The notes under the pieces were generated by a model. The model was not told the DNA's origin and did not search any database. It worked only from the letters and a program-made list of their open reading frames with translations. From positions 1 to 48,283 of the IMG/VR virus record IMGVR_UViG_3300035210_000071: a stretch of 48,283 bases of DNA; one strand, given 5' to 3'. Within the stretch, counting starts at the first letter, position 1. Each line of letters starts with the position of its first letter. The position numbers were made by a program, and so were the translations under genes. Below are positions 15,836-21,075 of the stretch, piece after piece. This stretch comes from a virus.

Positions 15836-16081
15836 ATGGCACAAGACGTTGTTGAGCTGCGTTTGGAGACCCCAGACGGCCTGATCGTCTATCTCCTGGT
15901 CGACCGGCAGCGCGGCTTGCCGCCGCGCAGCGATCCACCGGACCCCGGACAGCCGCGCGAGGCCGAGTTGCTCCGGGTTTACTGCGAGGACGGAAAATTG
16001 CCGGACCGGGAAACGTCGCGCTGGGCCGAGACGTGGTTCGGCGAGAATTCGGACGCCGCCTTTGATGGCGCAGAAGTTTGA
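15836..16081 (+). CDS. Small acidic hypothetical protein (81 aa)
   Basis: First supported gene of the rightward operon. Acidic, with Pro-rich centre (RGLPPRSDPPDPGQPREAEL). The only in-frame ATG is at 15836, with a GGGAG almost touching it, so initiation may be inefficient. Its TGA overlaps the exonuclease ATG (TGATG). No recognised family. Confidence 0.55.
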   Translation: MAQDVVELRLETPDGLIVYLLVDRQRGLPPRSDPPDPGQPREAELLRVYCEDGKLPDRETSRWAETWFGENSDAAFDGAEV

Positions 16082-17034
16082 TGCCCGGAACGATGCTGGG
16101 CGCGGGCATCTATTTCGGCGTCCCTGCGGACGTCTATCATTCCGATCCGTGTCCAGAACCGTCCCTCTCTCATTCGATCGCACGCACGATCGCAGGCCGC
16201 AGCGCCAAGCACGCGTGGCAAATCCACCCTCGCTTGAACGGCGAGTATCGGAGGGGTGCCCCAACCCAAGAGATGCAGGACGGTAGCTGCATACACGCAT
16301 ATGTGCTGGGCGGTCACGAGGATTTAATAATCACAGTTGACGCCGAGGATTGGCGCACCAAGGCCGCGCAAGAAATCCGCGACACCGCACTCGCCGAGGG
16401 AAAAATAGCCGTCCTGAAGAGGCGTATCCCAGGACTCCAGGCTGCCGGCGAAGCGGCTTGCAAGGCGTTGAAAGAACACGAAGATAGCTCGGAAATATTC
16501 GCCTTAGCCGAAAAGGAGGCGACGGTTATTTGGCAGGAGGGCGGCATCTATTGCCGCAGCCGGGTGGACCTCCTGCCGAACGATCCAGCGGCCACGGTTT
16601 ACGACTTCAAGTTCACCACCAAGAGCGCCGCACCCGCCGATTACGAGAAAACGGTCTGGAGCACGCTGGCCACCCAGGCGGTGTTCTACAGCCGTGGGTT
16701 GGAGGCGGCCCGGCAGGTCAGGCCGCGCGGATTCAAGTTCATCGCCTGCGAGATGTCGCCGCCGTACGGCGCCGCGGTGTTCGAGATCGGAAACGATCTG
16801 TGGGCGTATGCAGAGGACCAGATCGAGACCGCCATCATCCAGTGGGCGACGTCGATCGAGAGCGGATCGTGGCGGAGCTACCCGCGCCGCACCGTCACCG
16901 TGGGCCTGCCGGGGTGGTTGGCGAACCGCTGGGAAAACGAGCAGACGCTCACCCAGATCGGTCGCCGCGCCTCGATGGAGCGCGTGGAAGCCGTCGCCGG
17001 CGTCGCCAAGCGGCTCGGGAAGCCGCTGTCATGA
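16081..17034 (+). CDS. PD-(D/E)XK recombination exonuclease, RecE/Exo VIII-like (317 aa)
   Basis: Matches the phage exonuclease family with a RecB-type nuclease fold: GSCIHAYVLGG supplies the early His, RVDLLP gives D163, VYDFKFTTKSA gives D175 and K177, and QAVFYSRGL (Q199, Y203) is the QxxxY motif. It should resect double-strand ends to expose single strands for the annealing partner encoded downstream. The ATG at 16081 overlaps the upstream stop. Codons around 16300-16530 are somewhat AT-richer than the rest, suggesting mosaic origin. Confidence 0.8.
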   Translation: MPGTMLGAGIYFGVPADVYHSDPCPEPSLSHSIARTIAGRSAKHAWQIHPRLNGEYRRGAPTQEMQDGSCIHAYVLGGHEDLIITVDAEDWRTKAAQEIRDTALAEGKIAVLKRRIPGLQAAGEAACKALKEHEDSSEIFALAEKEATVIWQEGGIYCRSRVDLLPNDPAATVYDFKFTTKSAAPADYEKTVWSTLATQAVFYSRGLEAARQVRPRGFKFIACEMSPPYGAAVFEIGNDLWAYAEDQIETAIIQWATSIESGSWRSYPRRTVTVGLPGWLANRWENEQTLTQIGRRASMERVEAVAGVAKRLGKPLS

Positions 17035-17192
17035 GCAAGTACGGTGACACGCCGGAAGCCGCCAAGGCCGAGATCGCCGACCTCAAGCGCCATCTCGCCC
17101 AAGCCCGCCTCGACCGCGACCGGCTGGAGGCGCAGCTCGCCCGCGTCCTGGCGCAAGTGGCGGCACTGCAGCGGCGGAGGATCGCTGCATGA
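17031..17192 (+). CDS. Coiled-coil micro-protein between exonuclease and ATPase (53 aa)
   Basis: Almost the whole sequence is one heptad-patterned helix (AEIADLKRHLAQARLDRDRL, then a Leu/Ala-rich continuation) ending in basic residues. Both ends overlap neighbours by ATGA, so production is coupled to exonuclease and ATPase. It may bridge or regulate them, but nothing more is visible. Confidence 0.65.
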   Translation: MSKYGDTPEAAKAEIADLKRHLAQARLDRDRLEAQLARVLAQVAALQRRRIAA

Positions 17193-18202
17193 CCATCACT
17201 TGGGAGCCGGCCCGGCGTGACGGATTTGGCCTGTTCATCGCGTTGGCCGGGGGGTCGCGGTCGGGCAAGACCTTCAGCGCCCTGGAGCTCGCGACTGGCA
17301 TCGCCGGGCCGCGCGGGAAGATCGCCGCGGTCGACACCGAGAGCAAAAGGATGAGCCACTACAGCTCCCAGTTCACGTTCCATCGCGCCAGCATGGATCC
17401 GCCGTTCTCGCCTGACCGCTTCGCCGAACATGCGTTGAGCGCGGAAACGGCCGGCTTCTCGGTCCTCGTGATCGACAGCTTCTCGCTCGAATGGGCTGGC
17501 GAGGGCGGCGTGCTCGACTGGCACGAGCGTGAGCTGCAGAAGATGGTCCCGAGCGGCAACGAGACCGAGCGGAAGAAGAAAAGCCGCACCGCCTGGATCA
17601 AACCCAAGGCGGCGCACAAGGCGATGATGAATAGTCTGCTGCAACGGAAGATACCGATCATCTTTTGCCTGCGCGCCGAAGAAAAATTCGACGAATTCTT
17701 TCGTCCGTTGGGGTGGGTGCCGCAGCAGGACAAGCGATTTATTTTTGAGTGGACCGTGTCGCTGACGCTTTCGCCGGCCCGACCCGGTGAGCCCGATTAC
17801 GACCTGCCCCACAAGCTGCAGGACCAGCACCGCCCGCTGTTCCCCGAGGGCCAGAAGCTCACGGCCGCCGCCGGCGCCGCGCTGTGGGCGTGGGCGTGCG
17901 GCGACTTGCCGGCGCCCCCGGCGCGCGAGCCCGAGGATGGCGAGGAGAAGGTGCGCCAGATGCACGCCAACGCCGGAGATCGTGCGGTGCTGTTCGTCGC
18001 CGAACTCAAGGACGCGATCGCCAAGGCCGGGACCAGGCCGGCGCTCAACGCCCTGCTCGACCAGAAAGCCGTGCGCGCCCGGCTCGACCGGCTGGTTGAG
18101 GCGCACCCGGACAAGCACCGCGAGGTCATGGAGGCCGTCCAAATCCGCACCGCAGACCTTGCCGCGAACGAAATGACGCAGGAAGAGGATGTGCCGGCAT
18201 GA
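17189..18202 (+). CDS. Sak4-like RecA-fold ATPase / single-strand annealing protein (337 aa)
   Basis: Walker A GGSRSGKT (residues 21-28), a VDTES strand, and Walker B SVLVIDSF (91-97) followed by a Trp-Ala-Gly loop mark the RecA-like ATPase group used by phages as Sak4 recombinases. The core spans residues 1-230; a C-terminal charged region (KDAIAKAGTRPALNALLDQ) looks like a helical accessory domain. Next to a PD-(D/E)XK exonuclease, it should pair resected ends. Length is longer than minimal Sak4 owing to the C-terminal extension. Confidence 0.75.
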   Translation: MTITWEPARRDGFGLFIALAGGSRSGKTFSALELATGIAGPRGKIAAVDTESKRMSHYSSQFTFHRASMDPPFSPDRFAEHALSAETAGFSVLVIDSFSLEWAGEGGVLDWHERELQKMVPSGNETERKKKSRTAWIKPKAAHKAMMNSLLQRKIPIIFCLRAEEKFDEFFRPLGWVPQQDKRFIFEWTVSLTLSPARPGEPDYDLPHKLQDQHRPLFPEGQKLTAAAGAALWAWACGDLPAPPAREPEDGEEKVRQMHANAGDRAVLFVAELKDAIAKAGTRPALNALLDQKAVRARLDRLVEAHPDKHREVMEAVQIRTADLAANEMTQEEDVPA

Positions 18203-18669: not shown

Positions 18670-18722
18670 CCTCCTGAAATTCAACGCTACCGAACTCGTA
18701 AATACCGTGAGATAGATGCCGT

Positions 18723-18737
18723 GGCGGAAATTCCGCC
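18723..18737. promoter_or_regulatory. 15-bp palindrome just upstream of a ribosome site
   Basis: GGCGGAAATTCCGCC has 7-bp perfect arms and a single central base. It lies 2-3 bases before the TAGGAG ribosome site of the 293-aa gene. GTGGC (18721-18725) could instead pair with GCCAC (18744-18748), which overlaps that site, so an operator or a translational switch are both possible. Confidence 0.4.
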
Positions 18738-18751
18738 GTAGGAGCCACCCG

Positions 18752-19633
18752 ATGGCTGCGAAGAAAAAAGAAGAAGAACAGGCCCAGATTGTCGTTGAGC
18801 CGCTCGAAATCGGCGAGATGAAGTTTCACCTCATCGGAAATTCGCCGTTCATCTTCAACACGATGAGCGAGAAGGTGAAAATCTATCTGTTGATCCCGCC
18901 GCCTGGGAAGAAGACTGCCGCGGACAAGGCGGCCACCCTCAAGCACGACCCGGAGCAGGAGTTTCGGGACAGCGCCTCGCGGAACCTCGGCAACACCTGC
19001 GCCACCCGTCTCTGCCACCCGACGCCCGCCTTCAAGAACGCCATCGCCTCGGCCGCGCTCGACATGCCAGGCGCCGCCAAGACGGAGATCGGCCGGCTGA
19101 GTTGGGTCACGGGATACGCCGTCGACATCTACGGGATCCCGAAGTTGCTGATGAGCGTCGTGAAGATGAACAACGCAGCCAGGACGCCCGATGTCCGGAC
19201 GCGGGCAATCCTCATGGAATGGGCTTGCAGTTTCACGATCCAGTTTGCGAGGCCGAAACTGACGGCTCAAGCTATGACCAACCTCGCCGTTGCCGCCGGC
19301 ATGATCCGTGGCGTCGGCGATTTTCGCCAGGAGAAGGGCAAGGGCAGCTTCGGGCGCTTCCAGGTCGTTGGGCCTGACAACCCCGACTACAAGCGGATCG
19401 TCGCCACCGGCGGCCGGGCAGTGCAGGACGCCGCCCTTGAAGAGTGCGAGCCGGCTGACGACGAAAGCGAACGGCTGTTGAGCCGCTACAAAATCGAGGC
19501 CGCCCGCCTCGGTCGCGAGCCGGTGCGCCGCCCGCCCCCCGTCGAGAAGATTGCCAAGAAGAACGTCGCCGCCGGCGCTGCCGTCGCCAAGCGCCAGGCC
19601 GCCAAGCGCAACGGCACAGGAGCACGCAAATGA
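18752..19633 (+). CDS. Recombination-module partner protein, possibly RRM/RAMP-like (293 aa)
   Basis: The N-terminus is a lysine/glutamate run; FHLIGNSPFIFNTMSEK opens a domain that I recognise from many siphophages carrying Sak4-like ATPases (an I-x-G-x-SP-L/F-x-x-x-x-x-S motif). The domain closes with MIRGVGDFRQEKGKGSFGRF (about 187-206), a glycine-rich loop like those of RRM/RAMP-type nucleic-acid binding folds. A single-strand-binding or annealing-partner role is inferred; the exact family function is unknown to me. The C-terminus is basic and Ala-rich. AGGAG precedes the ATG. Confidence 0.65.
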   Translation: MAAKKKEEEQAQIVVEPLEIGEMKFHLIGNSPFIFNTMSEKVKIYLLIPPPGKKTAADKAATLKHDPEQEFRDSASRNLGNTCATRLCHPTPAFKNAIASAALDMPGAAKTEIGRLSWVTGYAVDIYGIPKLLMSVVKMNNAARTPDVRTRAILMEWACSFTIQFARPKLTAQAMTNLAVAAGMIRGVGDFRQEKGKGSFGRFQVVGPDNPDYKRIVATGGRAVQDAALEECEPADDESERLLSRYKIEAARLGREPVRRPPPVEKIAKKNVAAGAAVAKRQAAKRNGTGARK

Positions 19634-19821
19634 ATTTCCCCCAGGAGCTTTTCGAGATCATCGAGCACAACGGCGGGGAGATCACACCGAAACTGATCGT
19701 TGAGGCGGCCAGGGGGCCGGACTCTCCGTTGCACGCGGCATTCGAGTGGGACGACAGCAAGGCGGCCGAATGTTGGCGCGAGAGGTGCGCGCGGGACATC
19801 CTCGTCAGCTCAACGCGGTGA
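19630..19821 (+). CDS. Short copy of a tandem paralogous domain (63 aa)
   Basis: GEITPKLIVEAARGPDSPLH, then AAFEWDDSKAAECWRE, is the same domain as in the next gene, here without a C-terminal extension. The domain (L/I-TP-x-x-V-x-AAR...LH-x-x-FEWDD) is recurrent in phage genomes. It overlaps both neighbours by four bases. Function unknown. Confidence 0.7.
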   Translation: MNFPQELFEIIEHNGGEITPKLIVEAARGPDSPLHAAFEWDDSKAAECWRERCARDILVSSTR

Positions 19822-20291
19822 GCGCCCGGTTGGAGGTGCTTGCCCTCGCCGACAAGCACAAGGGGAGACTGACCCCGGACATGCTTGTGGCTGCGGCCAG
19901 GAAACCGTCATCGGCGTTGCACCGGCGGTTTGAGTGGGACGACACGATTGCCGGGCAGAAATACCGGCTTTACCAGGCGCGGCTGATTATCAACGTGGTT
20001 GTCACGCCGTCGATCGCCGGCAAGACCACTGTTGCGATCCCGGTTTTCGTCAGGAACCCGGGTATGGCATACAACGTGCAGGGATATATCGCGGTCGAGC
20101 ATCTGGCCGCGGACCCGGAAGCTGCGATGGAGAGCGTCAATGCCGAGTTCTCGCGGGTGCTGCAGGGCTTGATGCGGGCGAGGCATCTGGCTGTGGCGCT
20201 CGGCTTCGCCGGGGACATTGACCGACTGATGGAAGATGTGCGCAAGCTCGCGGGCCGGATCCCGTCGCCCCCCAAACGCAAGGCGGCGTGA
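19818..20291 (+). CDS. Long copy of the tandem FEWDD domain (157 aa)
   Basis: N-terminal KGRLTPDMLVAAARKPSSAL and RRFEWDDTIAGQKYRLYQAR repeat the previous protein's domain. A second domain (residues 60-157) carries beta strands VVVTPSIAGKTTVAIPVFVR and a helical basic end. The GTG at 19818 overlaps the previous stop. It is the last recognisable gene of the rightward operon before the pentamer array. Confidence 0.7.
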   Translation: MSARLEVLALADKHKGRLTPDMLVAAARKPSSALHRRFEWDDTIAGQKYRLYQARLIINVVVTPSIAGKTTVAIPVFVRNPGMAYNVQGYIAVEHLAADPEAAMESVNAEFSRVLQGLMRARHLAVALGFAGDIDRLMEDVRKLAGRIPSPPKRKAA

Positions 20292-20312
20292 GCCGGTAGG
20301 ATGTCGTGGAGC

Positions 20313-20913
20313 GGCTAGGCCAGGCGTGGCCGGGCAAGGCTTGGCGAGGCTCGGCACGGCAGTCCACACGCGGCCTGGTAAGGCCCGGCGTGGCTCGGCA
20401 CGGCAAGGCCCGGCTCGGCAAGGCACGGCCGTCTTGGCAAGGCATGGCTCGGCGCGGCGCGGCGGGGCATGGCGCGGCCGTCTACACCCGGCCAACAATG
20501 GACCGGAGAGGCATGGTGCGGCGCGGCCCGGTAGGGCCGTCCACATCGGGGCAGGCAGCACGAGCCTGCCCTTCGTGCCGAAAGACCAACGGATGTCACG
20601 GAGAGGCAGTCACGGCGCGGCAGGGTCGGGCAGGGCGCGGCCGGGCTTGGCTCGGCAGTCGTGGTACGGCACGGCTCGGTAGGGCGTGGCATGGTGCGGC
20701 AGTCCAGGCAAGGCGGGGCCAGGCACGGTGCGGCGAGGCCCGGCTTGGCAAGGCAAGGCCAGGCTCGGCCGTCAAGGCTCGGCTCGGCAAGGCGGGGCAT
20801 GGCAGGGTAGGGCAGTCAAGGCTCGGCATGTCCTGGCGCGGCATGGCTCGGCTCGGCCGTCATGGCGAGGCCTGGCCGGGCAAGGAGTGGCTCGGCTCGG
20901 CGCGGCCCGGCCA
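20313..20913 (+). repeat. GGCNN pentamer array with GGCMGTC punctuation
   Basis: About 600 bp are built of five-base units beginning GGC or, less often, GG, with two free bases, kept in phase for long runs. The phase is reset by GGC(A/C)GTC at 20358, 20427, 20476, 20535, 20605, 20654, 20698, 20767, 20811 and 20855. An irregular island lies at about 20544-20604. Stop-free frames on both strands follow from the composition and are not taken as genes. GG every five bases also fits a potential two-tier G-quadruplex series on the plus strand. Confidence 0.9.
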
Positions 20914-21040
20914 CCAGAGGCCACAGGTGCCGGCGGGGAGCGATCTTCGCCGGCACCGACCCCTATACGGGATACCCGCAATCAGGGCCTTGCCAAACTG
21001 TCATCAATGAAGGCAGCGTAACGGGCCGGCATGGGCCGGC
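20914..21040 (+). other. Gene-poor spacer after the pentamer array
   Basis: No frame here has a ribosome site or convincing codon pattern. A short stretch (20930-21020) could encode a non-repetitive peptide with GAIFAGTDPYTGYPQ, which looks more protein-like than its surroundings and may be a remnant of a gene broken up by the array. Otherwise nothing is recognised. Confidence 0.4.
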
Positions 21041-21075
21041 AAAAGAAAGGGCCGGACCCCGAAGGACCCGGCCCT
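21041..21075 (-). terminator. Leftward intrinsic terminator with UUCG tetraloop
   Basis: Read on the minus strand, AGGGCCGGGTCC and GGGTCCGGCCCT pair over 12 positions (two G-U) around a C(TTCG)G tetraloop and are followed at once by TTCTTTT. On the plus strand the G-U pairs become mismatches and no U run follows, so the element is directional. Confidence 0.75.

Follow-up and report, generated by a model that had tools for sequence, protein, structure and literature searches.

A GGCNN pentamer array beside a phage vipr gene is very probably a bank of about ten VIPR guide RNAs

We report that a pentanucleotide array in a viral sequence of 48,283 nucleotides (IMG/VR record IMGVR_UViG_3300035210_000071; the window, by which we mean the whole stretch analyzed) very probably encodes some ten guide RNAs with which a phage VIPR system recognizes rival DNA. 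We base this reading on computational analysis, which shows a conserved C or T after GG, variable dinucleotides (NN) behind it, a constant orientation with respect to the genes of a single protein family and a decoded target. According to the main text of a preprint that is not peer reviewed (PMC13142463; bioRxiv 2026.04.26.720920), VIPR systems combine a Vipr protein with vrRNAs made of GGY/NN repeats, in which GGY forms the scaffold and NN carries specificity, and successive NN pairs leave out one target base, usually a wobble base. The same text gives 9–16 repeats and a structured 3′ tail for each vrRNA, describes the SUSP1 locus as having four vrRNAs of ~100 nt, each separate and tailed at its 3′ end, and mentions staggered arrays (PMC13142463). 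VIPR is further characterized by a RAMP-type Vipr with an RRM core, a glycine-rich loop and a thumb domain, by vrRNAs that co-purify with Vipr and repress the target, and by accessory genes, published as vap1-6.

The array is not a product of base composition. Positions 20313–20913 contain 86 GGC triplets, and 62 consecutive pairs of these are spaced exactly 5 bases apart; in 1,000 dinucleotide-preserving shuffles the count averages 3.6 and never exceeds 12. Autocorrelation of the bases is highest at lags 5, 10, 15 and 20 (0.54–0.47, with other lags at 0.2–0.4), a six-unit GGCNN pattern occurs 19 times, always on the + strand (reversed pattern, 0), and nothing of comparable periodicity exists elsewhere in the whole window. 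The array runs from about 20299, where it starts with GGATGTC, to the end of a hairpin at 20957. A first-pass annotation made from the letters alone had described in-phase pentamers with conserved GG spacing, directly following a recombination operon, and had judged them unlikely to encode a protein repeat. The repeat, its spacing, its location and its non-coding nature are all borne out, and the pentamers are indeed in phase, but not over an unbroken 600 bases: the phase is shifted by about ten one-base slips of the form GGC-[A/C]-GTC, a step of 4 bases rather than 5 (at 20362, 20431, 20480, 20539, 20609, 20658, 20702, 20771, 20815 and 20859), and a non-repeat stretch cuts the array into two blocks. 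Each block opens with GGATGTC-NN-GGA and closes with a hairpin region, and splitting at GTC yields ten units of 8–13 NN pairs each (Table 1). The window has no Rfam match, and a literature search on GGCNN or pentanucleotide repeats returned nothing relevant; the earlier statement that no named element of this kind was known has nonetheless been overtaken by the description of VIPR vrRNAs in April 2026 (PMC13142463).

Table 1. Array units and neighboring genes in the window, with the NN pairs of each putative guide
Feature	Position	Strand	Basis and remarks
Exonuclease VIII-like gene (DUF3799, PDDEXK), recombination operon	16078–17034	+	phrog_412, E 4.6e-48; PF12684, E 1.3e-8
AAA ATPase gene (Sak4-like in the first-pass annotation)	17189–18202	+	phrog_1366, E 5e-52; AAA_24 below curated cut-off
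vipr, predicted RAMP-fold RNA-guided protein	18716–19633	+	family profile vs SUSP1 Vipr; AlphaFold2 model; phrog_4652
Partial extra copy of FEWDD 5′ part, directly after vipr	19630–19821	+	phrog_15946
FEWDD gene, start probably near 19827	19746–20291	+	phrog_15946; between vipr and array
Leader A, GGAT, before GTC and first guide	20299–20302	+	GGATGTC-NN-GGA recurs at 20591
U1: GT GC TA CA GT CG AA TT GA TC AC	20303–20361	+	GTC split
U2: [GC] CT AA CC GT TC AC AA CC TC AA AC	20362–20430	+	GTC split
U3: TT AA AT TC GC GC GG AT GC	20431–20479	+	GTC split; identical in sister phage L136
U4: CC CA AT CC GA AT GC GC CC AG	20480–20538	+	GTC split; identical in L136
Tail 1, non-repeat	20539–20590	+	hairpin 20548–20572; identical in L136
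Leader B, GGATGTCACGGAGAGGCA	20591–20608	+	GTC split; comparison with L136
U5: AC GC AG CG AG GC CG TT TC	20609–20657	+	GTC split
U6: GT AC AC TC AG GT AT GC	20658–20701	+	GTC split
U7: CA AA GG CA AC GC GA CC TT AA AA CA TC	20702–20770	+	GTC split; decoded target, rival vipr gene
U8: AA TC TC AA GG AT AG AG	20771–20814	+	GTC split
U9: AA TC AT CT GC AT TC TC	20815–20858	+	GTC split; one scaffold triplet is an in-phase GTC
U10: AT GA CT CG AA GT TC TC GC CC (CA)	20859–20925	+	GTC split
Tail 2 hairpin, 14 bp	20926–20957	+	fold z −4.3; two pair-preserving changes in L136

Three units have 8 NN, slightly below the published range per vrRNA, and U4 carries one degenerate scaffold triplet, ACA. The ten units share only two tail hairpins, most unit junctions having none. 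The tail 1 hairpin folds no more stably than its shuffles (z −0.7) and, being the same in L136, offers no covariation to examine; on paper its loop (20558–20563) may pair with 20573–20578, although a pseudoknot with a one-base linker across a long stem is doubtful. Shortly past the array, at 21048–21075, lies a strong terminator-like hairpin with its T-run on the − strand.

The gene that accompanies the array lies 675 bases upstream, and profile homology and predicted fold together identify its product as a Vipr protein. A profile of the family (alignment A1) matches SUSP1 Vipr (PDB 36pp) at E 2.1e-43, with Csm5 next at 0.14; the window protein as a single sequence matches it weakly (E 0.09), and it takes the family profile to reach the strong score. 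The AlphaFold2 model has a pLDDT of 87.8 and finds Csm3/Cas7-type RAMPs as its leading Foldseek matches in the PDB, at E about 1e-4 and moderate TM-scores. In the G-rich region of the protein, G199, R204 and G213 are invariant among 48 homologs.

Scanning viral contigs with seven units of the DNA pattern, a search of the kind that had been suggested, recovered at least 120 loci, and clustering their ORFs yielded one recurrent family, that of the window vipr gene. Among the 120 pattern-found loci listed, a profile search detects vipr in 83 (controls, 0 of 22 contigs); among these listed loci the array lies on the vipr strand in 121 of 123 cases, within 2 kb in 121 of 123 and at a median distance of 20 bases, and almost every array follows vipr in the same orientation. 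The reverse search agrees: most of 20 loci fetched by Vipr protein alone have a same-strand array. Named carriers of both include two plasmids of alphaproteobacteria, Sulfitobacter and Paracoccus, and Gordonia phage UmaThurman. The profile search detected no vipr in the other 37 of the 120 array loci listed, several of which have their array at a contig end; such loci perhaps encode a divergent Vipr or carry solo arrays. Arrays without a Vipr match occur in L009, L068, L084, L113 and others, some of them long and well inside the locus. In UmaThurman, gp40, annotated as a hypothetical protein (L173 3635–3952), overlies a 53-unit GGY/NN array beside vipr (gp39) and is probably a mis-annotated guide array. 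VIPR loci can be found quickly by DNA pattern alone.

Between vipr and the array lies a gene of the FEWDD family. The first-pass annotation had pointed to Sak4 and FEWDD genes as the neighbors to follow, and the FEWDD linkage stands: in the 10 loci found with the FEWDD protein, vipr is just upstream in 8 and an array is present in the other 2. The key neighbor is Vipr, and not the exonuclease or the AAA ATPase. FEWDD has no Pfam family, and its confidently predicted structure has no PDB match at E 0.001; its sequence shows no relationship to that of the gene following vipr in the SUSP1-like phage HY02. We consider it a candidate VIPR-accessory protein on the basis of this gene linkage. The partial copy after vipr is ~72% identical to the downstream one, and L136 has a single copy.

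L136 is a sister phage whose Vipr is 98% identical to that of the window and whose DNA around the array is 83–92% identical. The two arrays share one exact 186-base block (window 20426–20611, covering U3, U4, tail 1 and leader B) and the short start of U7 (CA AA GG), while the remaining L136 units keep the scaffold and boundaries and carry different NN. This pattern looks like the replacement of entire guide cassettes among related phages. The GGC-N-GTC boundary occurs in 13 of 15 examined members of the window Vipr subfamily and is absent in the more distant L067. Other VIPR clades (L067 1543–1899, L122, L104) have the unit boundary GGCA|GGC, again a 4-base step.

Decoding by the published rule, with one target base skipped between NN pairs, gives a target for U7. 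Its nine central NN match contig L129 among the viral contigs, and the alignment covers 11 consecutive NN, in frame and with the wobble base skipped (CAC AAC GGG CAG ACC GCC GAT CCC TTG AAC AAG), in a stretch encoding HNGQTADPLNK. The matched gene is itself a vipr gene, as judged by its match to SUSP1 Vipr (E 1.5e-15). L129 had been fetched with U7 and was therefore left out of the independent permutation test. With L129 excluded, at least 18 of the 26 U7 bases are matched in each of 8 other vipr genes, all in frame and nearly all where the homologous HNG..ADP motif lies; 1,000 permutations of NN order yield 0.16 such vipr genes on average and 9 at most. The highest score is 21, while no permutation scores above 20. 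The decoded motif is missing from the vipr gene of the window itself, and U7 is most likely, on this decoding, directed at vipr genes from another Vipr clade. More broadly, 228 of 343 guides from the loci best fit codon positions 1–2, compared with 158 in base-shuffled controls, an excess that would follow from coding targets whose wobble base is the one skipped. The targeted vipr of L129 (1430–2060) appears frameshifted near its 3′ part and is followed by an array of its own.

In a unit-wise scan of guides against the loci, the match of U7 to L129 is the only one beyond controls; blind decoding of whole arrays with skips of 0–4 was dominated by long undivided runs and was uninformative. U1, U2 and U10 have no convincing target in the data searched, and the 343 guides show no excess of matches to vipr genes in general beyond U7. 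We judged matches of U3 to L156 and L157, and of U7 to L133–L135 (9/13 NN), to be chance-like. An L136 guide matching the window ATPase gene at 15/16 was likewise put down to chance, a scan of the collection giving 14 matches, none in that gene. Three near-identical contigs (L130–L132) contain an 11/13 NN match to U7 in an ORF (LNVNGHTAEPFNN), which may be chance or a second target.

With nine units lacking a known target, the guides could mainly regulate genes of their own phage or its host. We regard this as unlikely, given that the one solved guide targets the vipr of another element, that U1, U2, U7 and U10 match neither the window nor L136 when as many as 5 base mismatches are allowed, and that the best self matches of the remaining units are chance-like. 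It is less likely still that the array is a genuine VIPR array that has decayed and no longer functions in the window phage. The degenerate scaffold triplets of U4 and U9, the partial FEWDD duplication, the scarcity of tails and the single target found would fit such decay; the near-identity of Vipr in L136, the replacement of guide units with their scaffold intact and the persisting match of U7 to rivals' vipr all speak against it.

The first-pass annotation had raised two-tier G-quadruplex formation and slippage of GGC/GCC units. We find such a DNA structural element, with a role in replication or recombination, unsupported as the cause and very improbable. The array does share a simple 5-base periodicity with GG with G-quadruplex and pentanucleotide satellite repeats, GG every 5 bases could give a weak two-tier quadruplex, and recombination genes precede it. 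Yet a quadruplex requires neither the pyrimidine after GG nor variable NN, slippage would be expected to produce homogeneous units where the NN are diverse, and such repeats would not account for arrays that track vipr and its strand, for whole guide cassettes being exchanged or for an NN order that spells a Vipr motif. A protein-coding pentapeptide repeat, G-x-A-[RW]-x, can practically be dismissed: with a 5-base period, any reading frame yields a 5-residue repeat, and long ORFs are present (e.g., 20306–21010), but open frames are expected where TAG is the sole possible stop in the GGCNN pattern, all frames yield the same kind of peptide, this ORF has no family match, and unit lengths in L136 differ from those of the window in 5-base steps, not codons.

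Returning to the guide-RNA bank, we take transcription, processing, binding and silencing by analogy from the VIPR preprint (PMC13142463). The array would be transcribed from the + strand together with vipr, and one unit, GTC-NN-(GGY-NN)n-GGC, would constitute one guide. The GGY triplets would serve as a scaffold gripped by Vipr subunits, while the NN pairs would base-pair with target DNA, skipping one target base between pairs; placed at the codon wobble position, the skipped base would let one guide cover synonymous variants. The one-base slip GGC-N-GTC separates the units, and related phages appear to exchange these as intact cassettes. The Vipr-RNA complex would probably bind and silence the DNA of rival elements, with at least U7 directed at the vipr gene of other phages.

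The locus resembles published VIPR in its RAMP-fold vipr in a phage, its adjoining same-strand GGY/NN repeat (here at the DNA level), its candidate accessory gene, its NN decoding with a 1-nt skip at the wobble (here computational) and a guide aimed at another VIPR system. Unlike SUSP1 VIPR as the preprint's main text presents it, it has ten guides head to tail, the GGC-N-GTC slip and just two tail hairpins. With Class 1 CRISPR-Cas (type III Csm/Cmr, type VII Cas7) it shares the Csm3/Cas7 RAMP matches of the Vipr model and a multi-guide array of exchangeable units, but specificity in the array is interleaved with scaffold every 5 bases. The neighbors examined contain no CRISPR repeats or other cas genes, and PADLOC gives no match for vipr, FEWDD or the exonuclease and only E 0.03 for the ATPase.

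VIPR systems were already known from the 2026 preprint, and what is worth following here is the cassette turnover and the linked FEWDD family. Taken together, our findings independently support the published VIPR code from raw sequence and extend it to a phage with ten guides, one of which, aimed at a conserved Vipr motif, follows the logic of an arms race between phages. We tentatively suggest, at somewhat less than even confidence, that alphaproteobacterial phages and plasmids carry a VIPR subtype with compact, GGC-N-GTC-delimited guide cassettes swapped between sister phages and with FEWDD as a partner that may help to process or acquire guides. If so, block-wise exchange would be a first clue to how VIPR systems gain guides, a question for which the preprint's main text offers no explanation and for which sister phages with the same Vipr and different guides provide a natural experiment.
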